DNA from: Streptomyces sp. NBC_01275
GTDB taxonomy: Bacteria; Actinomycetota; Actinomycetes; Streptomycetales; Streptomycetaceae
DNA length: 64,000 bases
Assembly (NCBI RefSeq): GCF_026340655.1
Contig: NZ_JAPEOZ010000001.1
Location: 8,432,001-8,496,000, forward strand
Direction of reading: 5' to 3'
Below are positions 32,688 to 50,349 of this stretch, piece after piece. Under the pieces are notes generated by a model. The model saw only the letters and a list, made by a program, of their open reading frames with translations. It did no database searches and was not told where the DNA came from. Position 1 is the stretch's first letter; each line of letters begins with the position of its first letter. Made by a program: the position numbers and the translations under genes.

Positions 32688-32741
32688 TTGCGCACCATCG
32701 TCCCCTCCAGGGAACGCCTCCTGGACGAGAGGAAAACAAAG

Positions 32742-34076: not shown

Positions 34077-34105
34077 CCAGGCGCGCCGCCACCGGGGGCA
34101 AGGAC

Positions 34106-34145: not shown

Positions 34146-34205
34146 GGCGTGCCACGGCGGTCCGTTCGGGGTGCGCCCGAGCGGATACGGCGTCACGCTC
34201 GACGT

Positions 34206-35498: not shown

Positions 35499-35544
35499 GT
35501 CGGACGACGTTAGGCCGCCGCCCGGCGAATGGGGGGCCTCCGGC

Positions 35545-35563
35545 ATGCAGTTTTACGTTGCGC
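35545..35563. promoter_or_regulatory. LysR-type site A
   Basis: ATGCAGTTTTACGTTGCGC shares the GCA-N9-TGC core and the complete right arm with the sites at 40952 and 50292. It lies between the cupin gene and the CMD-led transporter operon. A weak -10 (TACCTT, 35596-35601) begins 42 bases from its centre. Confidence 0.5.
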
Positions 35564-35681
35564 TCCGAGGTGGGTGAGCTTCTCGGACCCGGCTGTACCT
35601 TCACCTGCACCGCACGGCTTGACGATCCGTGTTCGTAGTGCGCCGGAAAGAAGCCGGAAAGAAAAGGCAGGTATCGGCCAG

Positions 35682-36269
35682 ATGAGGCTCCCCGTTCTCA
35701 GCGAAGAGGAAATGGATGCGCGGCAGCAGGAGCTGGCCGCCCGGATCGCCGGCCGCCGAGGCGCGGTGCGCGGTCCCTTCCGGGTCTGGCTGCACAGCCC
35801 GGAGATGTGCGAGCGGGCCGAGTCCCTCGGCGCCTTCGCCCGGTTCGACTGCAGTCTGCCCGAGCATCTGCGCGAGCTGACCCTGCTCATGGCCGCCCGC
35901 AACTGGGACGCGCAGTACTCGTGGAACGCCCATGTGCGCCAGGCCGTCGAGGCCGGCGTCCCCGAGGCCGCCGTGAAGGCCATCGCCGAGAAGCGCGAGG
36001 CGGTCTTCGACAACGCGGCGGACCAGGCGTTCTACCAGTTCTGCCGGGAGATCCTCGACGAGCACTTCGTCACCGACGCCACCTTCGCCGCCGCCCTGGA
36101 CCACTTCGGCTCCAGGGGCCTGGTGGACACCATCGGCGCGCTCGGCAACTTCACGATGCTCGGCATGTGCCTGAACACCTTCCAGGTGGACCTCCAGGCC
36201 GACAGGGAGCCCCCGTTCCCGGACGTCCGCGGCTACGGACGCGTGGCCCCCGACGGCGACCGGCCGTGA
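35682..36269 (+). CDS. Carboxymuconolactone decarboxylase-family protein
   Basis: The 195-residue AhpD/CMD-fold protein has LPEHLRELTLLMAARNWDAQ and YSWNAHVRQAVEAGVPEAAV, the central helices of the family. The CxxC pair of peroxidase-type members is absent and is replaced by the YSWNAH region, so it is more like decarboxylase-type or orphan members. The ATG at 682 is chosen over longer frames because the family begins there. It is the first gene of the importer operon; its stop overlaps the GTG of the ATPase gene. Such proteins occur often in aromatic-catabolism clusters. Confidence 0.82.
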   Translation: MRLPVLSEEEMDARQQELAARIAGRRGAVRGPFRVWLHSPEMCERAESLGAFARFDCSLPEHLRELTLLMAARNWDAQYSWNAHVRQAVEAGVPEAAVKAIAEKREAVFDNAADQAFYQFCREILDEHFVTDATFAAALDHFGSRGLVDTIGALGNFTMLGMCLNTFQVDLQADREPPFPDVRGYGRVAPDGDRP

Positions 36270-37825
36270 GCCCGGCCATGCCCGCGACCCCGACTCCGGT
36301 CCCGGCTCCGGCACCGGGCCCGGCCCCGACCCCGGCCCCGATCCCGGTCATGCGCGTCCGGGGCGTCACCAAGAGCTTCGGCGGGGCGGCCGCGCTCAAA
36401 GGCGTCGACCTCGATCTGTACCCCGGGGAGATCCACGCCCTGATGGGCATGAACGGCGCCGGCAAGTCGACCCTCGTGCAGGTGCTGTCCGGGGTCCACC
36501 AGGCCGACGGCGGCACGATCGAGGTCGACGGACAGGAGCGGCACGGGCTGACCGTGCGAGCGGCCCGCAGGCTCGGCGTCTCGTCGGTGCCCCAGCGCCG
36601 GGAGCTGGCGCAGGGCCTCACCGTGGCCGAGAACATCCTGCTCGGCGATCTGCCCACACGGGGCGGGGCCGTGCGGTGGAAGGCCGTCAGACAGGAGGCC
36701 CGCCAGGCGCTCGCCGCCCTCGGCATCGCCGTCGACGTGGAGCGCACCGCCGGTTCGCTCACCGTCGCCGAGCAGACCATGGTCGAGGTGGCCCGCGAGG
36801 TCCGTCGCGGCGGCCGGATCCTGATCCTGGACGAGCCGACCGCCTGTCTCAGCGCGGAGTCCGCCCACCAGATCCGCGCCCTGGTGCGCACCCTGCGGGA
36901 CGAGGGCGTCGCCGTCGTCTACATCTCGCACTACATCGACGAGGTCATGGCCGTCGCCGACCGGCTCACCGTGCTGCGCGACGGTGCGGTCGTGACGAGC
37001 GCGCCCGCCGCCGCCCTGGACCACGCCGGACTCGTGCGCGCCATGGTCGGCCGGGACGTCGTCTCCACCCGCCCCGAACGCCTCGCGCCCAAGCCGGAAG
37101 TCGGCCTCTCCGTCCAGGGGTTGAGCCACGGCCGGGCCATCCGGGACTTCACCGTCGAGGTGCGCAAGGGCGAGATCGTCGCCGTCCTCGGGCCCGCCGG
37201 CGACGCCCAGTCCCGCCTGTTCGACCTGCTGTCGGGACGGCAGCGCCCGGACGCCGGCCAACTCCACGTCGAGGGACGGGCGGTGCCCCTCGGCCGGGTC
37301 CACGCCTCGCTCGCCAGCGGTCTGCGCTGCGTCACCGGCGACCGCCGCGCCCTCGGCCTCGTCCCCGAACTCTCCCTGGACGAGAACCTGATGCTCGCCG
37401 GCGACCGCTTCGCCCGCCGCCGACTGCACCGACGCGGTCGACTCGCCCGCCGGGCCGCCCCCTTGCGCCACAGCTACGGCGTGAAGGCGCTGGCCGGGAA
37501 CCCGCCGGTGAGCGCGCTCTCAGGCGGCAACCAGCAGAAGGTGCTGCTCGGCAAGTGGCTGGAGACCTCGCCGGCCGCCTGCTTCCTGGAAGACCCCACC
37601 AACGGCGTGGACATCGCGGCCATGGCCGACATCCACACCCTGCTCGACGACCTCGCCTCCCGGGGCGTGGCCGTCCTGCTCGCCTCCTCCTCCGCCGAGG
37701 AGGTCATGCGCCTGGCCGACCGGGTCGTCGTGGTGAGCGCCGGCCGCACGGTCGCCGAGCACGACGTCACCGCCATCACCCGCGACGAACTCGTCGCCAC
37801 GGCCCTCGGAGGACAACCGCAGTGA
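36266..37825 (+). CDS. RbsA-type ABC transporter ATP-binding protein (two NBDs)
   Basis: The 519-residue protein has a Pro/Ala-rich N-terminal tail of about 28 residues, then two ATPase domains. The first has GMNGAGKST, SLTVAEQTMVEVAREV in the signature position and [10 protein letters not shown]. The second has GPAGDAQSRLF in the Walker A position (no Lys-Ser/Thr), then LSGGNQQKVLLGKW and FLEDPTNGVDI. A degenerate second site is normal in the ribose/galactose importer family. The GTG at 36266 overlaps the CMD stop; ATG 36278 is an alternative. Its stop overlaps the permease GTG. Confidence 0.92.
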   Translation: MSPAMPATPTPVPAPAPGPAPTPAPIPVMRVRGVTKSFGGAAALKGVDLDLYPGEIHALMGMNGAGKSTLVQVLSGVHQADGGTIEVDGQERHGLTVRAARRLGVSSVPQRRELAQGLTVAENILLGDLPTRGGAVRWKAVRQEARQALAALGIAVDVERTAGSLTVAEQTMVEVAREVRRGGRILILDEPTACLSAESAHQIRALVRTLRDEGVAVVYISHYIDEVMAVADRLTVLRDGAVVTSAPAAALDHAGLVRAMVGRDVVSTRPERLAPKPEVGLSVQGLSHGRAIRDFTVEVRKGEIVAVLGPAGDAQSRLFDLLSGRQRPDAGQLHVEGRAVPLGRVHASLASGLRCVTGDRRALGLVPELSLDENLMLAGDRFARRRLHRRGRLARRAAPLRHSYGVKALAGNPPVSALSGGNQQKVLLGKWLETSPAACFLEDPTNGVDIAAMADIHTLLDDLASRGVAVLLASSSAEEVMRLADRVVVVSAGRTVAEHDVTAITRDELVATALGGQPQ

Positions 37826-38847
37826 GCGTCAAGACACTTACCGATGCCCCCGGCGTCTGCGACGACCCGCCCGAGCGGCCCACGTCCCGGTATTCCCTGG
37901 GCAGGTTGCGCGACGTCCCGCACGCCGGCCTGATCGCCGTGCTCGTCCTCGTGACCGTCTTCACCGCCGCGCAGAGCGAGACGTTCGCCACCGACCGCAA
38001 CATCGTCAACATCCTGAGCCAGGTGAGCGTCAACGCCGTACTCGCCGCGGGGCTCACGCTGTTGATGACCGCGGGCGGCATGGACTTCTCCATGGGCAGC
38101 AACGTCGCCGTCACCGCCGCCGTCTCGGCGAAACTCCTGGCCGACGGCCGGCCCACGCTGTACGCCGTCGCTGTCGCGCTGCTGCTCGGCACGGCCATCG
38201 GCCTGGTCAACGGCCTGGTGGTGACCTTCACCCACGTGGCCCCCTTCGTGGTGACGCTGGCCTCGGCCACCCTGCTCGACGGCGTCGCGCTCCTGGTGCA
38301 CGACGGCTCCACGATCTCCATCGGCACCCGGATGTTCGCCCTCGGCAACGACAAGGTCCTCGGCGTGCCGTATCTGCTGATCGTCGCCGTCCTGGTGCTG
38401 GCGGCGACGGGCCTGGCCATGCGGTTCACGGTGTTCGGCCGCGACGCCTTCGCGATCGGCGGCAACGAGCACGTCGCCCGGCTCAGCGGCATCGACGTCA
38501 CCGCCCGCAAGCTCACCCTGTACGGCCTCACCGGCACCCTCTCCGGACTCGCCGGCCTGATGCTGCTGTCCCGGCTGGGCTCCTCCAGCCCCGGCGGCAC
38601 CGCAGGGCTCTCGCTGCAACTGGCCGTCGTCGCCGCGGTGGTGATCGGCGGGACCTCGCTGGCCGGCGGCCACGGCACGGTCATCGGCACCGCCCTCGGC
38701 CTGGTGCTGCTCGGCGTGGTGGCCAACGCCCTGAACCTTCTGGACTTCTCCAGCAACTACCAGCCGGTCTCCGTCGGCGCGGTGCTGCTCGTGGCGGCCG
38801 TCGCCAACGAGATGCACAAGTCCCGCTCGGGCGCGTCCCGCCACTGA
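37822..38847 (+). CDS. RbsC-type ABC transporter permease
   Basis: The 341-residue membrane protein has about ten helices. It has TAGGMDFSMGSNVAVTAAVS (usual GGIDLSVG), NGLVVTFTHVAPFVVTLAS and the cytoplasmic loop IGGNEHVARLSGIDV. The GTG start at 37822 follows GGAGG and overlaps the ATPase stop. It pairs with the ATPase and the lipoprotein that follows. The family normally imports sugars, but here the genes sit in what looks like an aromatic or hydroxy-acid locus. Confidence 0.92.
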   Translation: MSVKTLTDAPGVCDDPPERPTSRYSLGRLRDVPHAGLIAVLVLVTVFTAAQSETFATDRNIVNILSQVSVNAVLAAGLTLLMTAGGMDFSMGSNVAVTAAVSAKLLADGRPTLYAVAVALLLGTAIGLVNGLVVTFTHVAPFVVTLASATLLDGVALLVHDGSTISIGTRMFALGNDKVLGVPYLLIVAVLVLAATGLAMRFTVFGRDAFAIGGNEHVARLSGIDVTARKLTLYGLTGTLSGLAGLMLLSRLGSSSPGGTAGLSLQLAVVAAVVIGGTSLAGGHGTVIGTALGLVLLGVVANALNLLDFSSNYQPVSVGAVLLVAAVANEMHKSRSGASRH

Positions 38848-38920
38848 CCTCGCTCCTCGCCCACCCGGCTTCTCGCCCACCCCTGTCTTCTGCACTCCCG
38901 TACCTGAAAGGCGGTCCACC

Positions 38921-39868
38921 ATGCGACTTCCCGTCCGTTCGCGCAGAGCGCTGTACGCCACCGTCACCGGCTGCGCCCTGGTGCTGACCGGCTGCGGCAA
39001 CGACGACGCCGGCGGCTCCGACAGCGTCTCCCTAGGCTTCGTCAACGGCGGCGACACCAACTTCCACAGCTGTCTGCTGAAGGCCGTCGAGGGCCGGGCG
39101 AAGACGGAGGGGGCGAAGCTCTACACGGCCAACTCCCACCAGAACGCCGGGACCGAGCTGTCCAACATCGAGGACATGATCTCCCGCGACGTGAGCGCGC
39201 TGATCGTGCAGACGGTGAACGTCGACTCCCTCAAGGGCGACATCGCCAAGGCCAAGGCCGCGGGGATACCGATCTACCTGACCTCGGTGTCGACCAGCGA
39301 CGTCGACGACATCCTCGGCGCGGCCGTCGTCGACCTCAAGAAGGTCGGCAGCCTCGACGCCGGCTGGGTGGCGAAGGACGCGGGGACGAAGAAGGTCCAG
39401 GTCGGCATCGTCGCCGGCGCTCCCGGCGCTGCCTCGGACCTGCTCGTGGGCGGCTTCCAGGACGCCCTTCCGGCCACCGCCGAGGTGGTCGCCGACCAGC
39501 CGGGCATGTTCAACCCGGCGAAGGCCCAGGACGTGGCGGAGAACATGATCCAGGCCCATCCCGACCTGGACTACGCGTTCGTCGCCAACGAGGAGATGGC
39601 GTTCGCGGTGCGCAAGGCGTTCGACGCGGCCGGCGCCGACGACGTCAAGATCGTCACCGCGAACGGCACCGACGAGGGGCTGGCCGCCGTCAAGAGCGGC
39701 GCGTTCTCGGCCACCGTGGCGAACTCGGCGAAGACGATCGGCGAGACGGCCGTACAGAACGCCGTCGGACTCCTGGACGAGAAGAAGGTTGACAAGATTG
39801 CCAACATTCCTCTTCTGTTGGTGACCGAGGACAACCTGAGCGAGGCCCCCCAGTACTGCCCGAAGTAA
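38921..39868 (+). CDS. ABC transporter substrate-binding lipoprotein
   Basis: The 315-residue lipoprotein has a signal peptide ending VLTGC, with Cys25 lipidated. The body is a type I periplasmic binding protein: VSLGFVNGGDTNFHSCLLKA, MISRDVSALIVQTVNVD and AAGIPIYLTSVSTSDVDD. It follows the permease after a 73-base gap that contains a short CTCGCCCACCC repeat. It is the capture subunit of the RbsABC-like importer. Confidence 0.92.
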   Translation: MRLPVRSRRALYATVTGCALVLTGCGNDDAGGSDSVSLGFVNGGDTNFHSCLLKAVEGRAKTEGAKLYTANSHQNAGTELSNIEDMISRDVSALIVQTVNVDSLKGDIAKAKAAGIPIYLTSVSTSDVDDILGAAVVDLKKVGSLDAGWVAKDAGTKKVQVGIVAGAPGAASDLLVGGFQDALPATAEVVADQPGMFNPAKAQDVAENMIQAHPDLDYAFVANEEMAFAVRKAFDAAGADDVKIVTANGTDEGLAAVKSGAFSATVANSAKTIGETAVQNAVGLLDEKKVDKIANIPLLLVTEDNLSEAPQYCPK

Positions 39869-39962
39869 GGGACCTGGGGCGACCGGGCCGGCCGGGCTGT
39901 TCCGAGCCGCATGAACGCTCCCGCTCTCGACGCCGCGGGCGGGGGCCGCAAACGGAGGAAAC

Positions 39963-40871
39963 ATGGACCGCTTGCTGCTGATGCACAGCTTCGTCACTGT
40001 CGCTCAGGCCGGAAGCTTCAACGGAGCCGCCAAGAAACTGGGCTCCTCCGGGTCACTGGTGTCACGGCACGTGGCCGAGCTGGAACGACAGGTGGGGGTC
40101 CGCCTGGTCAACCGCACCGCCCGCTCGGTGAGCCTCACGGAGCCGGGACAGCGCTACGCGGAGTTCGCCGCCCGCATCCTCGACGAGATCGAGGCCCAGG
40201 ACGCGGCGCTCGCCGACTCGCACGACCGCGCGGAGGGCACGCTCAGCATCATCTGTCCGAAATGGATAGGCAGCCTGGACCTGGGCGACGCGATCGCCGC
40301 CTTTTCCGCGGCCCATCCGAAAATCCAGGTCCGTTTCGAACTCGGCGGGATGTCCGACCGCACCTACGATTTCCTGGACAGCGGATTCGACGTCGCCTTC
40401 CACACCAGGGATCTACGGGACTCCAGCGTCCGCCTGAAGAAGATCTCCTCCCTGCCGTTCGTGCTGTGCGCCTCGGAGGGCTACATCAAGCGCCAGGGCG
40501 CCCTCGCGCACCCCAACGACATCGCCGGCCACGACTGCCTGGTGCACGTCAACGACCCGGTCTGGCGCATCGGCCACGGCCACGCCAGCACCCTGCACAA
40601 GATCCGCAACATCGCCTTCTCGTCCAACTCCTACCTGGCCCTGCAGAAGGCCGCCGTGCACGGCCGGGGCATCGCCCTCCTCCCCCAGCGACCGGCCTAC
40701 GACGACCTCGTCTCCGGCGCCCTTCAGGTGCTGCTGCCGGAGCTCGCCGTACCCGACCGTCCGCTGTACGCGATCTACGGGCCCGGGCAGGACACCCCGC
40801 GCAAGATCAGCGTGTTCCTGGACTTCCTCTCCGACTGGTTCTCGCAGAACCCGATTCCCGCGATCCGGTAG
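39963..40871 (+). CDS. LysR-family transcriptional regulator
   Basis: The 302-residue regulator has an N-terminal helix-turn-helix FVTVAQAGSFNGAAKKLGSS, then SLVSRHVAELERQVGVRLVN. The effector domain from about residue 92 opens GTLSIICPKWIGSLDL. It lies in the middle of the locus in the same direction as its neighbours. A 19-bp dyad (40952-40970) lies 80 bases after its stop and about 66 bases before the likely start of the next transcript. That dyad recurs in three other gaps of the locus, so it is the likely master regulator. Confidence 0.9.
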   Translation: MDRLLLMHSFVTVAQAGSFNGAAKKLGSSGSLVSRHVAELERQVGVRLVNRTARSVSLTEPGQRYAEFAARILDEIEAQDAALADSHDRAEGTLSIICPKWIGSLDLGDAIAAFSAAHPKIQVRFELGGMSDRTYDFLDSGFDVAFHTRDLRDSSVRLKKISSLPFVLCASEGYIKRQGALAHPNDIAGHDCLVHVNDPVWRIGHGHASTLHKIRNIAFSSNSYLALQKAAVHGRGIALLPQRPAYDDLVSGALQVLLPELAVPDRPLYAIYGPGQDTPRKISVFLDFLSDWFSQNPIPAIR

Positions 40872-40950
40872 ACGCGCGATCGGGTTGACGCGCAATCCGG
40901 GAGATGCGCAATCCGGGAGACGCGCCATTCGAAAGGTGCGCCCTCCGGTG
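40871..40950. repeat. 16-bp degenerate tandem repeat after lysR
   Basis: Five units of about 16 bases (GACGCGCAATCCGGGA-like) begin at the last base of the LysR stop codon: 40871, 40887, 40903, 40919, 40935. Units two and three differ by one base. The last codons of the gene (CGCGATCCGGTAG) are related to the unit. Confidence 0.75.
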
Positions 40951-40951
40951 G

Positions 40952-41020
40952 GCGCAACAAAGGGTTGCGCGTTCCGTAGAGCTCGGGCCATTGAGGCTCC
41001 GGCCACCTCAAACCTACGCT
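40952..41020 (+). promoter_or_regulatory. LysR-type site B and promoter of the VOC-ALDH-FAH operon
   Basis: The perfect dyad GCGCAAC-N5-GTTGCGC occupies 40952-40970. Downstream, TTGAGG (40991-40996), 18 bases, then TACGCT (41015-41020) form a sigma-70 promoter. With a start near 41027 the dyad centre is at about -66, the classical position of a LysR recognition site. Confidence 0.75.
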
Positions 41021-41048
41021 CACCAGGCGACCCGGAAACGAGGAATCC

Positions 41049-41969
41049 ATGGGAATCCAGAGAATCGAATCGGTCACCTACGGCATCGACGACCTCGACG
41101 CATGCGTCCGGTTCTTCGACGACTTCGGTCTGTTCCTCGTTGAGCGGACCGACGAGCACGCCGTGTTCGAGACGCTCACCGGGCAGACGCTGCATCTGGA
41201 CACCGACCCCGGCCCCCTGCTCCCCCCGGCGGTGGAGACCGGACCCACCCTGCGGGAGGTCGTCTGGGGCGTCGACACCCGCGAGGAGCTGGAGCGCCTG
41301 GCCGCGGCCGCCGGCCGGGACCGGGAGGTGCGCGAGAGCGCCGACGGCGTCCTGCACACCGTCGACCTCAGCGGCTTCGGCGTGGGCCTCGCCCTCGCCC
41401 GGCCCAGGAAGGTCGCCGTGACGCCCCGCCCCGCCAACGCGCTGGGCGGCGTCAACCGCTGGAACACCCCGCTGGAGCCGCTCACGCGCGCGTACCCGCT
41501 GCGGATGTGCCATGTGGCGCTGAACATAGCGAAGGCCGGCAAGGACGAGGCCGTCGCCTTCTACACCGACGTCCTCGGCTTCCGCCCGACCGACGTAGTG
41601 GAGCCGATGGGCGTCTTCATGCGGGCCCCGGGCGACGAGGACCAGCACACGATGCTGCTGTGCCACCGCCCCGACCGGGTGAGCGTCAACCACGTCGCCT
41701 ACGAGGTCCCCGGCTTCGACGACGTCATCGAGGGCGGCAACTTCATGATCGAGAAGGGCTGGCGGGAGGCCCGCAGACTCGGCCGCCACACCGTCGGCTC
41801 GAACGTCTTCCGCTTCCTGCACGCCCCCTGCGGGGGCCGCGTCGAGTACGCCGCCGACATGGACCGCGTCGACGACACCTTCGAGACCCGCGTCCACGAG
41901 ACCACCCCGCCGCACCACATCTGGGCGCTGCGCACCAACCGCGACCAGGACGCGGCCTCCGCCTCCTGA
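41049..41969 (+). CDS. Two-domain VOC extradiol dioxygenase-like protein
   Basis: The 306-residue protein has two VOC modules. The C-terminal one has the expected metal residues: His in LRMCHVALNIAKAG, His in VSVNHVAYEVPGF and Glu in GGRVEYAADMD. The N-terminal module is degenerate, as is usual. It resembles catechol 2,3-dioxygenase and related ring-cleavage enzymes. It is the first gene downstream of the best LysR promoter and precedes an aldehyde dehydrogenase and a FAH-family enzyme, an order that fits a meta-cleavage pathway. Substrate unknown. Confidence 0.85.
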   Translation: MGIQRIESVTYGIDDLDACVRFFDDFGLFLVERTDEHAVFETLTGQTLHLDTDPGPLLPPAVETGPTLREVVWGVDTREELERLAAAAGRDREVRESADGVLHTVDLSGFGVGLALARPRKVAVTPRPANALGGVNRWNTPLEPLTRAYPLRMCHVALNIAKAGKDEAVAFYTDVLGFRPTDVVEPMGVFMRAPGDEDQHTMLLCHRPDRVSVNHVAYEVPGFDDVIEGGNFMIEKGWREARRLGRHTVGSNVFRFLHAPCGGRVEYAADMDRVDDTFETRVHETTPPHHIWALRTNRDQDAASAS

Positions 41970-42032
41970 GCCCAGCCCCCGTGACGTTCTGCCCAGCCCT
42001 TGTGGCGTTCCGCCCAGCCCTTGTGACGTTCT
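41970..42032. repeat. 21-bp tandem repeat, three copies
   Basis: Three 21-base units (GCCCAGCCCTTGTGACGTTC plus T; 41970, 41991, 42012) begin on the last base of the VOC stop codon and nearly fill the gap to the aldehyde dehydrogenase. A decayed fourth copy follows. Confidence 0.9.
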
Positions 42033-42059
42033 GACCGACCCCTGAGAGGGCACCCACCC

Positions 42060-43508
42060 ATGACCACCGACCACGGCTACCCCGCCGTCCGCCTGCACAT
42101 CGCGGGCGAGTGGCGCCAGGGCGGCACCGGACGGACCGCCCCGATCGTGAACCCGGCCACCGAGGAGGTGATCGGAGAAGTACCCCTGGCCACCCCCGCC
42201 GACCTGGACCGCGCGCTCGCCGCCGCAGCGGAGGGCTTCAAGACATGGCGCGCGACGCCCGTGGCGCGGCGCACCGCGATCCTGCACGCCGCCGCCGACC
42301 TGCTCACCGAGCGCGCCGCCGAGGTCGGGCGGATCATGACCCTGGAGCAGGGCAAGCCCCTCACGGAGGCCGCCGGCGAGGCCCGCCGGGTCGCCGACAC
42401 CCTGCGCTGGCACATCGAGGACGCCCGCCGCGCCTACGGCCGCATCATCCCCTCCGCGCCCGGCACCGTCCTCACCGTGCGCCGCGAACCGGTCGGGCCC
42501 GTCGCCGCCTTCGTCCCGTGGAACTTCCCGGCGGGCGGGCCGATGCGCAAGATCTCCTCCGCGCTCTCCGCCGGCTGCTCGATCGTCATCAAGGCCTCGG
42601 AGGAGACCCCGGCCACGGCCATGGAGCTGGTCCGCTGCTTCGTCGACGCCGGGCTCCCGGCCGGGGTGCTCAACCTCGTCTTCGGCGAGCCCGCCGAGGT
42701 CTCCGCCCACCTGATCGCCTCCCCGGTGATCCGCCTGGTCGCCTTCACCGGCTCGGTCCCGGTCGGCAAGCTCCTGGCCGCCCGGGCCGGGGAGGTCATG
42801 AAACCGTCCCTGATGGAGCTGGGCGGCCACGCCCCGGTGATCGTCTGCGCGGACGCCGACCCGGTGCAGGCCGCCCGCAAGGCCGCCCAGGCCAAGTTCG
42901 TCAACGCCGGACAGGTCTGCACCTCGCCCAGCCGCTTCCTCGTCCACGAGAGCCTCGTAGAGGAGTTCACCGCCGAGTTCGTGAAGGCGGCGGAGGCGGT
43001 GGTCGTCGGCGACGGTCTGGAACCGGGCACCACCATGGGCCCCCTCGCCAACGAGCGCCGCCTGAAGTCCCTGGAACGGCTCACCGCCGACGCCGTCGCC
43101 CGCGGCGCGAAGGTCCTCACCGGCGGCGAACGCCCGGACCGGCCCGGCTACTTCTTCGCGCCGACGGTCCTCACCGACGTACCCGAGGACGCCGAGCTGC
43201 TGCACGAGGAGCCGTTCGGGCCGATCGCGCCGATCGTGCCCTTCAGCGACCTCGACGAGGCCCTGGCCACCGCCAACGCCCTGCCGTACGGTCTCGCCGC
43301 CTACGGCTTCACCGCCTCCGCGGCGACCGCCGAGAAGCTCGCCGGCGAGCTGGAGGCCGGCATCCTCTCCCTCAACCACTGCGGCGGCTCCGTCCACGAG
43401 GCCCCCTCCGGCGGCGTCAAGGACAGCGGCTACGGCCGTGAGGGCGGCCCCGAGGCGCTGGACGCCTACCTGGTCACCAAGCGCGTCTCCCACCTGCTGG
43501 CGCCATGA
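42060..43508 (+). CDS. NAD(P)-dependent aldehyde dehydrogenase (semialdehyde type)
   Basis: The 482-residue protein has FVPWNFPAGGPMRKISSAL (substrate/cofactor entry), ELGGHAPVIV with the general-base Glu and FVNAGQVCTSPSRFLV with the catalytic Cys. The pattern is closest to succinate-semialdehyde dehydrogenases and 2-hydroxymuconic-semialdehyde-type enzymes. It would oxidise an aldehyde made by ring cleavage or side-chain removal. Its stop overlaps the FAH-family gene by 4 bases. Confidence 0.92.
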   Translation: MTTDHGYPAVRLHIAGEWRQGGTGRTAPIVNPATEEVIGEVPLATPADLDRALAAAAEGFKTWRATPVARRTAILHAAADLLTERAAEVGRIMTLEQGKPLTEAAGEARRVADTLRWHIEDARRAYGRIIPSAPGTVLTVRREPVGPVAAFVPWNFPAGGPMRKISSALSAGCSIVIKASEETPATAMELVRCFVDAGLPAGVLNLVFGEPAEVSAHLIASPVIRLVAFTGSVPVGKLLAARAGEVMKPSLMELGGHAPVIVCADADPVQAARKAAQAKFVNAGQVCTSPSRFLVHESLVEEFTAEFVKAAEAVVVGDGLEPGTTMGPLANERRLKSLERLTADAVARGAKVLTGGERPDRPGYFFAPTVLTDVPEDAELLHEEPFGPIAPIVPFSDLDEALATANALPYGLAAYGFTASAATAEKLAGELEAGILSLNHCGGSVHEAPSGGVKDSGYGREGGPEALDAYLVTKRVSHLLAP

Positions 43509-44320
43509 GGTACGCGCGAGTCTCGGTCGGCGGCCGGCCGTTGTGGGGCCGCGTGGGGGAGGAGGCCGTCGAACTGCTGTCGGGCTCGCCGTTGGAGGCC
43601 ACGTGGCGGCAGCCGCAGAGCGACAGCGGTCCCGAGGTCATCGGCACCGTCCAGCGCGACACCGCCGTCTGGCTCCCGCCGGTGATCCCGCCCGTCTTCT
43701 ACGCCGTCGGCATGAACTACCCGCGCCACATCGAGCACGCGGCCCGCGTCGGCGACACCGCCGCCGTCCTGCCGGACCGACCCGAGGTCGGCTACCGCGC
43801 CAACAACGCGCTCACCGGCCATCTCTCACCGATCGTCAAACCGGTCGAGGTGGTGGGCCGCTTCGAGGCCGAGCCCGAACTCGTCGCCGTCATCGGCCGT
43901 ACGATCCGCCGCGCCACCTACGAAGACGCCCGCGCGTCCGTCTTCGGCTGGACCATCGGCAACGACGTCAGCGCCCGCACCTGGCAGCACCAGGACCGCT
44001 CGTTCTGGCGCAGCAAGAACAGCGACACCTTCAAGCCCATGGGCCCGTGGATCGAGACCGATGTCGACGCGCTCGCCCAGACGACCACGCTCCGCGTCAA
44101 CGGCGAGGAACGGGCCTCGTTCCCCACCGGCGACATGGTGTTCGACCCCTTCGACCACATCGTCGAGCTCACCCGGCACAACACCCTGCACCCCGGGGAC
44201 GTGCTGTGGATGGGCGCCGAGTCGGCCTGCCAGATCGAGCCCGGGGACACCGTGGAGGTCGAGATCGGCGGCATCGGCGTGCTGTCCAACCCCGTTCACC
44301 TCGAAGGGAATCCGTCATGA
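43505..44320 (+). CDS. Fumarylacetoacetate hydrolase-family protein
   Basis: The 271-residue protein has the FAH fold. It contains GRFEAEPELVAVIGRTI with the metal-binding Glu residues, FGWTIGNDVSARTWQ with the Asp, and GDMVFDPFDHIVELTRHNTL near the C-terminus. Family members hydrolyse acylpyruvates or act as 2-oxo-hept-3-ene-dioate hydratases and decarboxylases in meta-cleavage pathways. It is coupled by 4-base overlaps to the aldehyde dehydrogenase before it and the VOC gene after it. Confidence 0.9.
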   Translation: MRYARVSVGGRPLWGRVGEEAVELLSGSPLEATWRQPQSDSGPEVIGTVQRDTAVWLPPVIPPVFYAVGMNYPRHIEHAARVGDTAAVLPDRPEVGYRANNALTGHLSPIVKPVEVVGRFEAEPELVAVIGRTIRRATYEDARASVFGWTIGNDVSARTWQHQDRSFWRSKNSDTFKPMGPWIETDVDALAQTTTLRVNGEERASFPTGDMVFDPFDHIVELTRHNTLHPGDVLWMGAESACQIEPGDTVEVEIGGIGVLSNPVHLEGNPS

Positions 44321-44688
44321 GCAACGCACCCCGCTACATCCACCACGTCAACTTCCCGACCACGGACCCCGACCGCACCGCCGAGTGGTACACGAAGGTC
44401 TTCGGCATGAAGCGGATCATGCCCAAGTCCAACACCCGCGTGGTGCTGATGACCCGGGGCGACTTCGACCTGCACTTCACCCCGGTCGAGGAGATGGAAC
44501 GCATGGCGCCCTACCACTTCGCCGTCGAGGTCGACGACTGGGACGACTTCCTCGCCCACCTCAAGGAGCTGGGCATCCGCCACACCCGGCCCGTCCAACG
44601 GCCCGAGAACCAGTCGAAGTTCTGCTACATCCACGACCCCGACCACACCATGATCGAGCTCGTCTACCACGCCAAGCGCCCCAACTGA
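44317..44688 (+). CDS. Single-domain VOC protein
   Basis: The 123-residue protein has RYIHHVNFPTTDPDRTAEWY, YHFAVEVDDWDDFLAHLKEL and HTMIELVYH, giving the His and Glu positions of the VOC/glyoxalase fold. With only one module pair it must dimerise to form a site. The ATG overlaps the FAH stop. Possible roles are a lyase, an isomerase or a small dioxygenase in the same pathway. Confidence 0.85.
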   Translation: MSNAPRYIHHVNFPTTDPDRTAEWYTKVFGMKRIMPKSNTRVVLMTRGDFDLHFTPVEEMERMAPYHFAVEVDDWDDFLAHLKELGIRHTRPVQRPENQSKFCYIHDPDHTMIELVYHAKRPN

Positions 44689-44714
44689 TCGTCACCGCTT
44701 AGGAGTTCTTTCCC

Positions 44715-45518
44715 ATGCCTTTCGCCGACTCCGACGGCACCTCCCTCTACTACGAGCGCCACGGCAGCGGTCCGGCGATCCTGTTCGTGCACGGCAGCGG
44801 CGGCCACCACGCCGCCTGGTGGCAGCAGGTCGCCGCGCTGCGCGAGCAGTTCACCGTGGTCACCCTCGACCTGCGCGGCTTCGGCAAGTCCGGCGCACCC
44901 ATCCCTGCGCACTCGTCCAGGCCGGAGTTCGACGGCCAGGACTTCCCGGGCGACGTCGTCGCCGTCCTCGACCAGGAGGACCTCACCGACGTCATGCTGG
45001 TCGGCCAGTCCATCGGCTCCGTCGCCGCCCTGCGGGCCGGCCTGCTGCGCCCCGAGCGGGTCTCCTCGGTCGTCCTCGGCCACTCCCTGGGCGGCGTCAG
45101 CCACCCGGAACTGAAGGAGCTGGCCGCCGCCGACCGCGCCGAGGCCGTCAAACTCCCGGTCATCGACCGCCTGTTGACCAAGCCGTTCCAGCAGGAGCGC
45201 GCAGACCTCACCTTCCTGTTCCAGCAGATGGGCACCTTCAACGTCGCCCGGATGCAGGACCTGCGCAACCTCGACACCAACGGCCCCTCCCTGGAGGAGA
45301 TCGAGGCCTCGGGCGTCACGGTCGCCTTCCTGGCGGGCGAGAAGGACGCCGTGCTCAGCGTGCAGACCGTCACCCGCGCCCACGAACTGCTGCCCGGCTC
45401 GCACCTGGAGATCGTCCCGGGCGCCCCGCACTCCATGTACTGGGAGACGCCCCAGGCCTACAACGAGGCCGTCGCCCGTCTGCGTCGCACTCTCACCGCC
45501 CAGAAGGAAGCAGCATGA
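44715..45518 (+). CDS. Alpha/beta hydrolase (meta-cleavage product hydrolase-like)
   Basis: The 267-residue protein has the oxyanion loop LFVHGSGGHHAAWWQQV, the nucleophile elbow VGQSIGSVAALRAG, FLAGEKDAVLSVQ with the acid and VPGAPHSMYWETP with the catalytic His. The length and the helical cap fit C-C bond hydrolases of meta-cleavage pathways, but an esterase or lactonase role is possible. It follows AGGAG. Its last 4 bases overlap the GlcG-like gene. Confidence 0.88.
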   Translation: MPFADSDGTSLYYERHGSGPAILFVHGSGGHHAAWWQQVAALREQFTVVTLDLRGFGKSGAPIPAHSSRPEFDGQDFPGDVVAVLDQEDLTDVMLVGQSIGSVAALRAGLLRPERVSSVVLGHSLGGVSHPELKELAAADRAEAVKLPVIDRLLTKPFQQERADLTFLFQQMGTFNVARMQDLRNLDTNGPSLEEIEASGVTVAFLAGEKDAVLSVQTVTRAHELLPGSHLEIVPGAPHSMYWETPQAYNEAVARLRRTLTAQKEAA

Positions 45519-45991
45519 GCAACATCAGCCTCGACGCGGCCGAGGAGATCATCGCCGCCGCCCACCAGCGCGCCCAGGCGGTCGGCAAGGCGGTGAGCGT
45601 GGCCGTGGTGGACTCCGGCGGCTTCGTCGTCGCGATCCGCCGCCCGGACGGGGCCCGCCCCCTCACCCCGGACATCGCCCGCGCCAAGGCCTACACCGCG
45701 GCCGTCATGCAGCGGCCCGGCAAGATGCTGAAGAAGTGGCAGGAGAGCCAGCCCGTCTTCTTCGCCCAGCTCTCCCAACTCCCCGGCGCCGCTTGGCCGA
45801 TCATGGCCACCGAGGGCAGCGTCACCATCAAGAGGGACGGCGAGATCATCGGCGGTCTCGGCATCGCCGGCGGCACCGCCGAGGAGGACCAGGCAATCGC
45901 CGACGAGGTCCTCGCCTCCCTCGGCTACGAGCTGGAGTTCGCCGCCTGGGGCGTCGCCGGCGGGCCGGCCGGGCCCGGAAAGGACGTGTGA
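45515..45991 (+). CDS. GlcG/HbpS-family protein
   Basis: The 158-residue protein of the GlcG/HbpS (DUF336) family has GKAVSVAVVDSGGFVVAIRR, ARAKAYTAAVM and GGLGIAGGTAEEDQAIADE, all diagnostic. Characterised relatives bind haem or cobalamin-pathway ligands or act with glycolate and propanediol catabolism. Its role here is unknown. It is coupled to the hydrolase upstream and lies 3 bases before the MetE-like gene. Confidence 0.88.
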   Translation: MSNISLDAAEEIIAAAHQRAQAVGKAVSVAVVDSGGFVVAIRRPDGARPLTPDIARAKAYTAAVMQRPGKMLKKWQESQPVFFAQLSQLPGAAWPIMATEGSVTIKRDGEIIGGLGIAGGTAEEDQAIADEVLASLGYELEFAAWGVAGGPAGPGKDV

Positions 45992-45994
45992 CCC

Positions 45995-47023
45995 ATGGCG
46001 GACACCTTCAACTACCGCATCGACCACCACGGCAGCCTGGTCCGCCCCGCCGAGCTCACCGCCGCCCGCGCGGCCGGCGACCCGGAGGCGCTGCGGGCGG
46101 CGCAGCTGCGGGCGGTCGAGGAGGCCGTCGTCCTCCAGCGCAGGCTGCGCTCCACCGTCGTCACCGACGGCGACCTCCCGCGGGAGGACTTCCGCAGCGC
46201 CGTCCTCGCCGGCGTCTGCGGTTTCCGGCGCACCGAGGAGGTGGGCGAGGACGGCCTGGTGCGCTGGGTCGCCGAGTCGCTCCCCAAGGCCGGCGGCCCC
46301 CTGCTCGCGGACTGGGCCGCCCGGCTCGCCGAGCTGACGGTGATCGCGCCGAAGGCGTCGCTGCCGTCCCCGGCGTACCTCGCCGCGACCACCTTCCGGC
46401 CGGGCCTCGGCCCGTCCTCGGCCCGTGAGCTCGGTGAAGCCCTCGCCGAGATCGTCCGGGCGGAGATCGCGCTGCTGGTGTCCAGGGGCGTCCGGCTGAT
46501 CCAGCTGAACAACCCGCTCCTGCTGGGCCAGTTGGCCACCGACCCGGCCGACCCGGGCGCGCTCTCCTTCGAGGACGCGCTCGCCGTCGAGGCCCTGGCC
46601 GTACGGCTCGACGAGCGTCCCGAGGGGGTGCGCATAGGAGTCGCCCCCGGCTGGGCCGCCCCGGCGGCGGTGGACCGGGCGCGGGCCGAGCAGTTGTACG
46701 GGGCCGTCCCGGCCGACCGCTGGATCCTGCCGTTCGACCAGGGCGCCGACGCCGAGCTGGACCTCGTCAGGGCGCTGCCGGAGGACCGGGACGTCTGCCT
46801 GGGCGTGGTCGACGCGACCGTGCCCGAGCTGGAGGACGTCGACACGGTGATGGCCCGGATCGACGCGGTCGGCGAGTTCAAGGACCTGGAGGACGCGGCC
46901 GTGTCGCCGTCCCGGGGCTTCGCCGACGTGGCGAGCCGGCCGCTGCTGAACGCGGAGGAACAGCGCCGCAAGTTTGTCCTGGTGGAGACCGTCGCCCGCT
47001 ACTGCTGGGGCAACGAGTTCTGA
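45995..47023 (+). CDS. MetE-like protein lacking zinc ligands
   Basis: The 342-residue protein has the fold of the catalytic half of cobalamin-independent methionine synthase (YRIDHHGSLVRPAEL at the start, VRLIQLNNPLLLGQL in the middle, FADVASRPLLNAEEQRRK near the end). In active MetE relatives a His-x-Cys pair and a later Cys bind zinc to activate the thiol. Here those places read RIGVAPGW and VSPSRGFADV, so all are lost. It is unlikely to be an ordinary methionine synthase. In this catabolic operon it could have another lyase or transfer role. Confidence 0.8.
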   Translation: MADTFNYRIDHHGSLVRPAELTAARAAGDPEALRAAQLRAVEEAVVLQRRLRSTVVTDGDLPREDFRSAVLAGVCGFRRTEEVGEDGLVRWVAESLPKAGGPLLADWAARLAELTVIAPKASLPSPAYLAATTFRPGLGPSSARELGEALAEIVRAEIALLVSRGVRLIQLNNPLLLGQLATDPADPGALSFEDALAVEALAVRLDERPEGVRIGVAPGWAAPAAVDRARAEQLYGAVPADRWILPFDQGADAELDLVRALPEDRDVCLGVVDATVPELEDVDTVMARIDAVGEFKDLEDAAVSPSRGFADVASRPLLNAEEQRRKFVLVETVARYCWGNEF

Positions 47024-47028
47024 CAGCC

Positions 47029-47056
47029 GCCGGGCAACTCCCTTGAGTTGCCCGGC
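47029..47056. terminator. Bidirectional terminator
   Basis: A perfect 12-bp stem (GCCGGGCAACTC paired with 47045-47056) has a CCTT loop. It sits between convergent genes, 6 bases after the MetE-like stop and 9 bases before the ABM-gene stop on the other strand. Confidence 0.85.
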
Positions 47057-47064
47057 AGTTCGCT

Positions 47065-47352
47065 CTACAGCACCTCTGCGAACGTCACCGTCCGGTCCGT
47101 CAGCAGCGGCCACACCGCAGCCACGATCAGCTCCTGGAAGTGCTCGGCCGCCTTGTGCGCGTCGAATCCGGCCCGGTCGGCGTACCGCTCGTAGAGCAGG
47201 AAGCCGCCCGCCTCGTCCGCCACGGAGTGCACCTCGTACGCCTCGTTCGCGGGCTCGGCGCGGGTGTGCTCGCGTACCTCGAGCAGCGCGGCGCGCACGG
47301 TGGCCTCGTCGGCGGGCTCGCAGCGGTAGTGGGCGACGACTGCATAGGCCAT
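47065..47352 (-). CDS. Antibiotic biosynthesis monooxygenase (ABM)-domain protein
   Basis: The 95-residue ferredoxin-like protein has YAVVAHYRCEPADEATVRAA, NEAYEVHSVADEAGGFLLYE and FDAHKAAEHFQELI, the three ABM motifs. ABM proteins are cofactor-free quinone-forming monooxygenases or haem-degrading enzymes. In an aromatic locus a quinol oxygenase is plausible. The ATG at 47352 follows AGGAGAG. The LysR-type site C lies 70 bases upstream, with a possible -10 TGGAAT (47389-47384). Confidence 0.85.
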   Translation of the reverse strand: MAYAVVAHYRCEPADEATVRAALLEVREHTRAEPANEAYEVHSVADEAGGFLLYERYADRAGFDAHKAAEHFQELIVAAVWPLLTDRTVTFAEVL

Positions 47353-47421
47353 GTGTCTCTCCTCGGGTCGGTCCGGCCCGGCGATTCCAGCATGGATCAT
47401 GCCCGCGCCCACCCGCGCGCG

Positions 47422-47440
47422 GCGCAACCAATGCCTGCCG
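47422..47440. promoter_or_regulatory. LysR-type site C
   Basis: GCGCAACCAATGCCTGCCG has a complete left arm and the GCA-N9-TGC core. It lies between the divergent ABM gene and the aldehyde dehydrogenase. Toward the ABM gene a TGGAAT hexamer begins 42 bases from the centre, the same distance as at site A and one base less than at site D. Confidence 0.5.
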
Positions 47441-47536
47441 CCACGGGGCTGGTGGCACCGCCCCGACATGGTGTGTCGTCGCAGTCCGCACAGTGGCAGT
47501 CCGCACCCTGGCCGACAAAGGAAGTGACCCCTTTAC

Positions 47537-48985
47537 ATGCGTACCGTGGAAACCCTCGTGGGCGGGGAGTGGGCGGCGAGCGCCGAATGGATCGACGTCC
47601 TCGACCCCGCCGACGTCCGCACCCCGTTCGCCCGCGTCCCGGCCCTCACGGCCAAGGACGTGACCCGGGCCTTCGACCACGCCGAGCGCGCCTTCGCCGT
47701 CTGGAAGCGCACCAGCCCCTTCGAGCGGGCCCGGATCTTCACCGACGCGGCGCGTCTGCTCCGCGAGCGGGTCGAGGCGATCGCCGCCGACGTCACCGCC
47801 GAGAACGGCAAGACCCTCACCGAGGCGACCGGCGAGACCCTCAAGGCCGCCGACTTCCTGGAGTACTACGCCGGTCTCGCCCGCCAGGGCTACGGCACCC
47901 TTCTGCACGACGTACGGCCGCACCACCGTACGCACACCCAGCGCGAGCCGATCGGCGTGATCCTGGTGATCAGCCCGTGGAACGACCCGCTGATCACCCC
48001 CGCCCGCAAGCTCGCCCCGCTGCTCGCGGCCGGCAACGCGGCCGTGTTCAAGCCGGCCACCGAGACCCCGGTGTCCGGCCTGCACTTCGCGCGGGCCCTG
48101 CACGACGCGGGCCTGCCGGCCGGGGTCCTCAACGTGGTGACCGGCCGTACGGCAGAGATCGAGGAGGCGCTCCTGGACGACCCGCGGATCGTCGGCGTCA
48201 CCTTCACCGGCTCCAACGCCGTCGGCAACCGCATCCGGCGTCGCCTCGCCGACCGAAACGTCCGCTTCCAGGGCGAGCTGGGCGGCAAGAACGCCTCCGT
48301 CGTCCTGCGGGACGCCGATCTGCCGGCCGCGGCGAAGGCCGTCGTGGCCGCCTCGTTCGGCCAGGCGGGTCAGCGCTGCACCGCCACCAGCCGGGTGATC
48401 GTCGAGCGGCCGGTGTACGAGGAGTTCACCCGGCTGCTGGTCGCCGAGGTCGAGACGCTGAAGGTCGGCCCGGGCAGCGACCCGGCGACCACCCTGTGCC
48501 CGCTCTCCAGCCCCCGGCAGCGCGACAGCGTGCTGGCCGATCTCGCACAGGCCGTCGAGCAGGGGGCCGTCGTCCTCACCGGCGGCCGGGCCGACGTCGA
48601 GGGCGAGCGCGCCCACGGCTGCTATGTGCTGCCGACCGTGCTCGGGGACGTCACCCCCGAGACGGCTCTGTGGCGCGAGGAGGTGTTCGGGCCGGTCCTC
48701 GCCCTGCGCGCGGTCGACGGCTTCGACGCGGCCGTCGAGGCCGTCAACGACTCCGCCTTCGGTCTGGCCGCCGCCGTCTTCACCCGCGACCTCGCCGCCG
48801 CGTACCGTTTCGCCGACGAGGCCGAGTGCGGGCAGGTCGCCGTCAACACGACCACCACCGGGTGGGACGTCCATCTGCCGTTCGGCGGGTTCCGCGACTC
48901 GGGAACCGCCTACAAGGAGCAGGGCGAGGAAGTCCTGCGGTTCTCCACGCGGGTCAAGACGGTCGCCGTGCACTTCGGTGGCTGA
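47537..48985 (+). CDS. Aldehyde dehydrogenase (vanillin/benzaldehyde type)
   Basis: The 482-residue protein has VISPWNDPLITPARKLAPLL, FKPATETPVSGL, ELGGKNASVVL with the Glu and FGQAGQRCTATSRVIVE with the catalytic Cys. It is distinct from the enzyme at 42060 and closer to aromatic-aldehyde or 2,5-dioxovalerate dehydrogenases. The GGTFR-type C-terminus reads PFGGFRDSGTAYKEQG. It starts the second plus-strand operon of the locus. The gap to the next gene (48986-49056) holds GCAGAGAACGCCGAG twice. Confidence 0.92.
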   Translation: MRTVETLVGGEWAASAEWIDVLDPADVRTPFARVPALTAKDVTRAFDHAERAFAVWKRTSPFERARIFTDAARLLRERVEAIAADVTAENGKTLTEATGETLKAADFLEYYAGLARQGYGTLLHDVRPHHRTHTQREPIGVILVISPWNDPLITPARKLAPLLAAGNAAVFKPATETPVSGLHFARALHDAGLPAGVLNVVTGRTAEIEEALLDDPRIVGVTFTGSNAVGNRIRRRLADRNVRFQGELGGKNASVVLRDADLPAAAKAVVAASFGQAGQRCTATSRVIVERPVYEEFTRLLVAEVETLKVGPGSDPATTLCPLSSPRQRDSVLADLAQAVEQGAVVLTGGRADVEGERAHGCYVLPTVLGDVTPETALWREEVFGPVLALRAVDGFDAAVEAVNDSAFGLAAAVFTRDLAAAYRFADEAECGQVAVNTTTTGWDVHLPFGGFRDSGTAYKEQGEEVLRFSTRVKTVAVHFGG

Positions 48986-49056
48986 AGACATGAGAAGAGC
49001 CCGCAGAGAACGCCGAGCCGGCGGAGAATGCAGAGAACGCCGAGAGGAGCCCGCCG

Positions 49057-50265
49057 ATGGCTGAGGAGACGATCGGCGTCGTGGGCGCGGGCATCGTGGG
49101 TCTGGCCACGGCCCGCGAGATCGCCCTGAGCCGCCCCGGCGCCCGGGTCGTGGTCTTCGAGAAGGAGCAGGAGGTCTCGCTCCACCAGACCGGCCACAAC
49201 TCGGGCGTCGTCCACGCCGGCATCTATTACAAGCCCGGCAGCCTCAAGGCCGACCTGACGGTCCGGGGCGTGTCCCTGTTGCGGGAGTACTGCCAGGACC
49301 GCGCGCTGCCGTACCGCGAGATCGGCAAACTGGTCGTCGCGGTCCGCGAGGACGAGCTGGGCCGGATGGAGAACCTCTACGAACGGGCCAGGAACAACCA
49401 CGTGCCCGACCTGAGGAGGATCTCCCGGGACGAGATCCGGGAGCTCGAGCCGCACGCCGGCGGCATCGCGGCCCTGCACTCCCCGCGCACCGCGATCACC
49501 GACTACCCGGCGATCGCCCGCGCCTTCGCCCAGGACGTCCTCGACGCCGGCGGCGAGGTGCGACTCGGCTTCCCGGTCACCGGCGTCACCGACCTGCCCG
49601 GCGGCATCGAGGTCGTCTCCCGGCAGGAGAGGGTCCGCGTGGACCGGCTGATCCTGTGCGCGGGGCTTCAGTCCGACGCCGTGGCCAGGCTCGCGCAGGA
49701 CGGGCGGGAGCCGCGGATCGTCCCGTTCCGGGGCGAGTACATGCTGCTCAGGCCGGAGAAGAGGGACCTCGTGCGCGGCCTGGTCTATCCGGTGCCGGAC
49801 CCGCGCTATCCCTTCCTCGGCGTCCACTTCACCCCGCGCGTCGACGGCTCGGTGGAGGTCGGCCCCAACGCGGTCCTCGCCCTGGCCAGGGAGGGCTACA
49901 CCCGGACCAGGATCTCCCCACGGGACCTCCTCGGCCTCGCCGCCTACCCCGGGGTCTGGAGGATGGCGGCCCAGCACTGGCGTACCGGCGTCAAGGAGTA
50001 CCGCGGCTCCTTCTCCGCGGCCGCCTTCATGAAGGACGCCAAGCTGTACGTCCCCGCGGTCGGCGTCCGGGACGTCGTGCGCGGCGGCGCGGGCGTGCGG
50101 GCCCAGGCCCTGGACCGGGACGGCGCCCTCGTGGACGACTTCCGCATCCATCAGGTGGGCCGCGTCACCGCCGTCCGCAACGCGCCGTCGCCGGCCGCGA
50201 CGGCCTCCATGGCGATCGCCGAACACATCGCCGACGCGGTGTTCAAGCACCCTTCCGCAAGCTGA
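49057..50265 (+). CDS. lhgO: L-2-hydroxyglutarate oxidase family FAD enzyme
   Basis: The 402-residue FAD protein of the DAO fold opens IGVVGAGIVGLATAREIAL. It has LHQTGHNSGVVHAGIYYKPG, the signature of LhgO, and FRGEYMLLRPEKRDLVRGLV. LhgO oxidises L-2-hydroxyglutarate to 2-oxoglutarate and passes electrons to the quinone pool. In this locus a different 2-hydroxy acid made by the pathway is equally possible. GAGGAGC precedes the ATG. The stop codon lies inside the stem of the terminator that follows. Confidence 0.85.
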   Translation: MAEETIGVVGAGIVGLATAREIALSRPGARVVVFEKEQEVSLHQTGHNSGVVHAGIYYKPGSLKADLTVRGVSLLREYCQDRALPYREIGKLVVAVREDELGRMENLYERARNNHVPDLRRISRDEIRELEPHAGGIAALHSPRTAITDYPAIARAFAQDVLDAGGEVRLGFPVTGVTDLPGGIEVVSRQERVRVDRLILCAGLQSDAVARLAQDGREPRIVPFRGEYMLLRPEKRDLVRGLVYPVPDPRYPFLGVHFTPRVDGSVEVGPNAVLALAREGYTRTRISPRDLLGLAAYPGVWRMAAQHWRTGVKEYRGSFSAAAFMKDAKLYVPAVGVRDVVRGGAGVRAQALDRDGALVDDFRIHQVGRVTAVRNAPSPAATASMAIAEHIADAVFKHPSAS

Positions 50266-50292
50266 AAGTGCCCTCTGTACAGGGCACTTTCA
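50263..50292 (+). terminator. Intrinsic terminator containing the lhgO stop codon
   Basis: A perfect 12-bp stem (50263-50274 with 50281-50292) has a CTGTAC loop. The stem begins with TGA, the stop codon of the preceding gene. No T-run follows. Its right arm touches LysR-type site D. Confidence 0.85.
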
Positions 50293-50349
50293 CGCAACAA
50301 CAGCTTGCGCTCCCAGAGGCTCCGCAAGGCCTTTCCGCCCGCCTAGCGT
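50292..50349 (+). promoter_or_regulatory. LysR-type site D and promoter of the amidohydrolase operon
   Basis: ACGCAACAACAGCTTGCGC (50292-50310) is the same dyad as site B with the same spacing. TAGCGT at 50344-50349 is a good -10 that begins 43 bases from the dyad centre. No -35 hexamer is visible, as expected for an activated promoter. Confidence 0.65.

Follow-up and report, generated by a model that had tools for sequence, protein, structure and literature searches.

The catabolic locus and its four dyads

The window analysed here is a stretch of 64,000 nucleotides (64 kb) from the 10.4 Mb genome of Streptomyces sp. NBC_01275. Between 35.1 and 54.2 kb it holds a catabolic locus in which four intergenic gaps carry copies of one interrupted dyad, and in which a single gene for a LysR-family regulator, lysR at 39963, is found among the genes examined between 34 and 54 kb (Table 1). 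Judged from the sequence, the four dyads are, with a probability of roughly 0.88, the operators of this LysR, joining the catabolic locus into one regulon. An earlier note on the same DNA had proposed a probable LysR regulon with a single LysR gene; both points hold, and the regulon is supported by the conservation of the sites in orthologous loci with a retained LysR gene.

The locus opens with a cupin gene that diverges from cmd, the first gene of a presumed unit that continues into an ABC importer and lysR, and four further presumed units follow to the right. The enzyme set looks like one for ring cleavage and subsequent degradation to central metabolites. The homoprotocatechuate (Hpa) meta-cleavage equivalogs HpaD, HpaE and HpaG scored only 43.6, 340.1 and 124.3 bits here, far under their respective cut-offs of 321.4, 638.35 and 276.4, and therefore no pathway name is assigned. 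The LysR itself has its closest relatives in Streptomyces, with 96% identity to that of locus L070.

All four 19-base elements with the core GCA-N9-TGC that the earlier note had pointed out are present at the positions it gave, with one correction: the copy at 35545 reads on the minus strand, pointing towards the cupin gene, and all four copies therefore begin RCGCAAC. Of the copies at 40952 and 50292, which it had described as near-complete dyads, CGCAAC-N5-GTTGCG is matched exactly at 40952, the only mismatch-free occurrence in the genome, and with at most one mismatch at 50292, one of 35 such genome places. The core alone is unspecific: the window has 30 matches where 20.4 ± 4.8 would be expected, a number equalled or exceeded in 4 of 100 shuffles. 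The extended form GCAA-N7-YTGC, a conserved interrupted dyad of about 15 bp present at 4/4 sites, gives six strand-matches in the window, and these fall at four places, the four dyads only. This pattern was drawn from the four sites themselves, and the count is modest as a number (2.1 expected on average, and 3 of 100 shuffles give at least 6); the weight of the evidence lies in where the matches are, not in how many there are. Of the 23 genome places that match RYGCAA-N7-YTGCRY, three are in this locus. Backwards control patterns are more frequent than the motif (60 vs 35 for CGCAAC-N5-GTTGCG; 25/19 vs 14/14 for RYGCAA-N7-YTGCRY), so that the motif is not enriched across the genome. Its unusual feature is its concentration in this locus.

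Table 1. Dyads, promoter elements and genes of the catabolic locus (window coordinates; distances run from the dyad centre to the first base of the −10)
Feature	Coordinates	Strand	Remarks
Dyad 1	35545..35563	−	GCGCAACGTAAAACTGCAT (minus strand); common to the divergent cupin and cmd promoters
Dyad 2	40952..40970	+	GCGCAACAAAGGGTTGCGC; before dox operon; perfect 7-N5-7 dyad
Dyad 3	47422..47440	+	GCGCAACCAATGCCTGCCG; common to the divergent abm and aldB promoters
Dyad 4	50292..50310	+	ACGCAACAACAGCTTGCGC; before amh operon
cupin −10, TAACGT	35507..35512	−	42 bp
cmd −10, TACCTT	35596..35601	+	42 bp
dox −35, TTGAGG	40991..40996	+	
dox −10, TACGCT	41015..41020	+	54 bp
abm probable −10, TGGAAT	47384..47389	−	42 bp; weak consensus match, strongly conserved
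aldB probable −10, TGTGTC	47472..47477	+	41 bp; weak consensus match
amh −10, TAGCGT	50344..50349	+	43 bp
cupin	35085..35498	−	Cupin_2 protein
cmd	35682..36269	+	CMD-like protein, 22.5 bits against a Pfam cut-off of 23
Ribose-type ABC importer, ATPase and permease	36266..38847	+	start codons assumed
sbp	38921..39868	+	ABC importer substrate-binding protein, Peripla_BP_4
lysR	39963..40871	+	HTH_1 and LysR_substrate; presumed binder of the dyads
dox	41049..41969	+	two-domain VOC protein, extradiol-dioxygenase-like
aldA	42060..43508	+	aldehyde dehydrogenase
fah	43505..44320	+	fumarylacetoacetate-hydrolase family protein
Small VOC/glyoxalase protein	44317..44688	+	overlaps the fah stop, easily overlooked
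abh	44715..45518	+	alpha/beta hydrolase
HbpS-like protein	45518..45991	+	start codon not settled
MetE-like protein	45995..47023	+	Meth_synt_2
abm	47065..47352	−	antibiotic biosynthesis monooxygenase (ABM) domain protein
aldB	47537..48985	+	second aldehyde dehydrogenase
L-2-hydroxyglutarate oxidase	49057..50265	+	"dao" in gap names; NCBIfam equivalog, 533.8 bits against a cut-off of 299
amh	50443..51303	+	amidohydrolase, Amidohydro_2
tpp	51317..53074	+	thiamine-diphosphate enzyme
ldh	53166..54248	+	Ldh_2 family dehydrogenase

Conservation of the sites in orthologous loci

One scan with the LysR protein yielded 68 named loci, most of which keep the gene order; all counts below refer to the mappable gaps of these loci and of the window. 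When each set of gaps was aligned with MAFFT, GCA-N9-TGC fell at the matching position in 64/65 cupin/cmd, 62/67 dox, 53/61 aldB and 47/53 amh gaps. With all four site families pooled into one oriented matrix, a site scoring at least 15 is found in 65/65, 66/68, 57/61 and 51/55 of these gaps, respectively, but in 0/323 other gaps of the same loci and 0/250 coding stretches. The motif, which according to the earlier note should not be as frequent in random gaps of the genome, is rare in the other gaps of the same loci and occurs at few other places in the genome. Orientation is kept as well: among the amh gaps with a match, the opposite strand scores better in only 4/51. One class of control gap, fah–abh, proved unsuitable, being coding (the small VOC gene at 44317–44688; median length 397 bp over 67 gaps); it makes up 67 of the 323.

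Since the all-family matrix was trained on these same sites, held-out matrices were added. At a score of at least 10 they recover 18/65 cupin/cmd, 65/68 dox, 54/61 aldB and 51/55 amh sites, against hits in 2, 22, 45 and 1 out of 312 control gaps; the coding fah–abh stretch accounts for 1, 22, 43 and 1 of these hits. In the window the held-out sites rank 10th, 4th, 6th and 5th of 127,964 positions, a ranking that includes the three sites used for training. Symmetrised matrices from single gaps were discarded: with those of the other gaps the 35545 site came 22nd, 61st and 41st in the window, and with the oriented matrices of three gaps together it came 10th. Outside the locus, two of the other 20 genome places with RYGCAA-N7-YTGCRY (L143 and L151, scores 11.4 and 7.0) are not clearly coding by a rough reading-frame check, and the top score among the 20, 20.2 (L156), stays under those of the four sites (21.5–23.0).

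The most distant loci extend this picture. L133, from an acidimicrobial metagenome-assembled genome, has a LysR of 65% identity and rearranged genes, with cupin and lysR directly divergent. Its three best matches, all outside the training rows of the matrix, are found upstream of amh, in the divergent cupin–lysR gap and upstream of cmd, none of them before dox. Measured from the centre, TANNNT boxes follow at 42 bp for amh and at 43 bp for both cupin and cmd; towards lysR such a box is found only at 65. In L203 (LysR 59%) the top two matches are found upstream of dox and within the cupin/cmd gap, with TANNNT at 52 bp towards dox, where TTGA stands upstream, and at 52 bp towards cupin, and none towards cmd. 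In the six loci L202 and L204–L208 (LysR 55–57%) the matrix finds little; their cupin/cmd and dox gaps contain a drifted dyad of about NCGNANNATTAGNNTTCGN, a consensus written from these same sequences, and the −10 again lies 42/43 and 52/53 from it. The drift could not be linked to changes in the recognition helix, SGSxxSRHVA being identical in the orthologues looked at.

As a separate observation, genome G228 carries a second amh–tpp–ldh set with an operator, GCGCAACAAGTGGTTGCGC, at L064 13009–13027 (the same copy as L065 16553–16571), and LysR paralogues of 77–78% identity are encoded near this set.

Promoters and the spacing between dyad and −10

The −10 boxes were taken from conservation, and the first base of each is assumed to precede the transcription start by 12 bp. 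By this measure the 40952 dyad would be centred at about −66 of dox, the position that the earlier note had also arrived at, and the dyads of the other five promoters at about −53 to −55. The centre-to-−10 distances in Table 1 (54 at dox, 43 at amh, 42 at cupin, cmd and abm, 41 at aldB) come close to the note's 54, 43, 42 and 42 bases. The cupin mRNA is probably leaderless here, with TAACGT starting 14 bases before the ATG at 35498; in many other species the cupin leader is longer.

Across the loci the spacing is quantised. When every TANNNT box 15–70 bp from the dyad centre was counted in gaps with a site scoring at least 12, 258/266 stood at 31, 32, 42, 43, 52, 53 or 54 bp, compared with 11/91 after these flanks were shuffled once. 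At cmd a TANNNT lies at 42/43 in 65/65 loci (one has a second at 55), and at amh in 52/52. The cupin promoter has 42/43 in 60/65, 31/32 in four (Actinoplanes/Paractinoplanes) and 53 in one (Nocardia), while dox has 52–54 in 58/67 and 42/43 in 8/67, with none in L073. None of the eight dox promoters at 42/43 has a TTGA/TTGG −35, whereas 57/58 of the other dox promoters have one, and it is at dox only that a conserved −35 is seen. The aldB gaps show TGTGT at 39–41 in 40/61 and TANNNT at 42/43 in 10, and seven TANNNT boxes lie elsewhere (33, 61); abm has no TANNNT, and TGGAAT occurs at 42, 43 or 31 in 52/61. As the cmd −10, TGTAC was tried and abandoned: it stands at 40/41 in 36/65 loci and is missing from 29, while TANNNT fits them all.

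The distance from dyad to −10 takes two to five values per promoter, against 18–30 for the distance from −10 to start codon, in the alignments of the cupin, dox, aldB and amh gaps; cmd, with 56/65 rows gapped, was left aside. On a quick LysR tree the spacing class of cupin changes at least three times and that of dox at least twice, each time by about one turn. No second dyad that might be an activation site near the −35 stands out in the gap alignments. A conserved CTCCGCAAGG at 50320–50329, between dyad 4 and the amh −10 and near −35, contains a GCAA half, and might be an activation half-site.

A model of the regulon and its competitors

In the model that we favour, a LysR dimer, or a dimer of dimers, would bind YGCAR-N7-YTGCR and, when loaded with an inducer derived from the (probably aromatic ring-cleavage) pathway, would touch RNA polymerase, always from the same side of the helix, and thereby activate transcription. 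Six promoters would respond, those of cupin, cmd–ABC–lysR, the dox operon, abm, aldB–L-2-hydroxyglutarate oxidase and amh–tpp–ldh, and four operators probably suffice for them, because two of the dyads, those at 35545 and 47422, are placed halfway (41–42 bp) between divergent −10 boxes. LysR would control its own synthesis through the cmd promoter, since lysR is read in the same direction as cmd and the importer genes and lies behind them, and the gap between sbp and lysR carries no site (0/47 with the oriented matrix at a score of at least 15). In 11 orthologous loci the importer genes (36266–39868) are absent and lysR directly follows cmd. At dox the bound site would sit upstream of a normal −35; elsewhere it would be one turn nearer, where no −35 is conserved. 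We lean, if only slightly, towards a broader rule: that one dyad acts both ways, at a ladder of about 31, 42 and 53 bp from the −10 (roughly −43, −54 and −66) on one helix face; that evolution shifts the dyad by full turns, dispensing with a −35 where the dox site has moved inward, and lets the operator sequence drift; and that helical phase, rather than absolute position or a separate activation site, is what is conserved.

LysR might instead bind the dyads as a repressor or with mixed sign, activating at dox and doing something else at the sites near −54. The one-turn difference in position relative to the −10, together with a −35 conserved at dox only, would fit such a division; yet a dyad 41–43 bp from the −10 leaves that box uncovered where no conserved −35 is visible, which suits activation, and eight loci have dox itself in the 42/43 form without TTGA/TTGG. 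We therefore regard a repressor or mixed sign as unlikely.

Considerably less probable is that the dyads belong to another transcription factor encoded elsewhere and that the linked LysR has a different target. Such an assignment gains from the departure of the motif from T-N11-A and from the 29 further matches to the LysR protein (E ≤ 0.001) that the genome holds. It is opposed by inheritance, genomic position and geometry. The regulator is both linked to and co-inherited with its presumed targets: within the genus, the LysR occurs in 22/295 genomes (E ≤ 1e-50) and amh in 21 (E ≤ 1e-60), all 21 inside the 22; across the class, LysR and amh (both E ≤ 1e-60) occur in exactly the same 12/394 genomes, with 137 genera sampled. 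In L133 a site lies directly between cupin and lysR, few motif matches are found elsewhere in the genome, and the dyads have the geometry of those of the LysR family, to which the protein clearly belongs (PF00126, 65.9 bits; PF03466, 116.4 bits; both over cut-off). Linkage, co-occurrence, motif geometry and the divergent lysR–cupin arrangement of L133 thus support the LysR at 39963 as the likely binder. Chance matches in promoter gaps, for which the unspecific core and the lack of genome-wide over-representation of the extended patterns might speak, are practically negligible as an explanation given the conserved footprints in the aligned gaps, the empty control gaps and the held-out tests.

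Several points nonetheless weigh against a LysR regulon of the form proposed, or temper its details. The site majorities have C-N11-G in place of the T-N11-A expected of LysR operators. The cupin/cmd site is the least similar member of the set, given its held-out recovery of 18/65 and its window rank of 10. Sites scoring under 15 occur at dox in L133 (9.3) and L135 (13.6), at aldB in L080, L108, L123 and L127 (12.1–14.8), and at amh in L073 and L096, where the gaps measure 34 and 50 bp, as well as in L126 and L127 within strict gap limits only. In the seven loci L202–L208 no site over 7.0 was found in the 220 bp before amh. The aldB and abm boxes are poor consensus matches chosen by conservation and constitute weaker evidence, and 11/61 aldB gaps have neither TGTGT at 39–41 nor TANNNT at 42/43. 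The phase offsets were named after the data had been seen, and most loci are from Streptomyces, so that the locus counts are not independent events. A LysR-free orthologous locus, the natural negative control, was not found in the sampled genomes.

Six stretches around LysR paralogues form a side observation: in four, the best match of the 190 bp after lysR (7.9–15.0) lies at 28–36 bp, and in two nothing over 1.9 appears in that span.

Relation to known LysR systems

The operators of CatM/BenM-type LysR proteins read ATAC-N7-GTAT, according to excerpts of PMC6628147, and the dyads described here share with them a 15-bp interrupted dyad with 4-base halves and an N7 spacer, placed upstream of catabolic promoters that are aromatic there and probably so here. 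They differ in their halves, GCAA/YTGC, by which C-N11-G replaces T-N11-A, in the lack of a conserved second dyad in the gap alignments, and in lying, by the assumed starts, mostly near −54 instead of −65. CutR of Mycobacterium is an actinobacterial LysR activator that likewise departs from T-N11-A; in the excerpted part of PMC12609908 it has one dyad near −60, for which the authors found no suitable second site, and modified variants of T-N11-A are said there to exist. Unlike the present regulator, CutR has T-N12-A and is associated with CO dehydrogenase genes.

ThnR, of tetralin degradation, is the nearest precedent that we met for one LysR acting on at least four promoters with a turn-shifted site. 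As far as excerpts of PMC4834489 go, this single regulator serves at least four promoters, divergent ones included, controls its own unit, and has one site centred at −75, about one turn from −65; all these features would have their counterpart here. By the same excerpts, each divergent promoter of the ThnR system has its own primary site, and a co-activator takes part, in contrast to the one dyad midway between two promoters seen here, where moreover the shift is towards the promoter.

By structure, the closest relatives are remote. The nearest solved structures include PDB 3hhg, 3t1b and 3szp, which we take to be CrgA and AphB, and the alignment covers almost the full length at E 1e-25 to 1e-30; the YafC and AaeR models score far under cut-off. 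The likeness to the AphB/CrgA/AaeR/YafC branch thus consists in its place among the nearest solved structures, and the difference in the remote similarity and in the other genes controlled. AphB sites have been described as TGCAA-N7-TTGCA, which would be the same dyad.

In searches of open-licence papers we recognised no published description of this locus or motif. The regulon as such belongs to a known type; its novelty lies in the operator variant, in dyads placed midway for use in both directions, and in a spacing that changes turn by turn. For a catabolic locus found in Streptomyces and in several further genera of actinomycetes, the analysis supplies a concrete candidate regulator, operator and promoter map. 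Activators are generally expected to occupy the right face of the helix, and the loci provide a natural series in which the same LysR operator stands at 31–32, 42–43 and 52–54 bp among orthologous promoters; on the quick LysR tree the spacing has changed at least five times. The geometry of LysR activation at promoters with no obvious activation site thereby becomes directly testable.

Flanking features

The left flank (31644–34994) contains more catabolic-type genes, those for another two-domain VOC protein (31644–32594) and an alpha/beta hydrolase (34149–34994), and none of the window's 15 best operator matches. At 50264–50291 an inverted repeat, GAAAGTGCCC...GGGCACTTTC, with no T run after it, lies at the end of the L-2-hydroxyglutarate oxidase gene and stops just before dyad 4.

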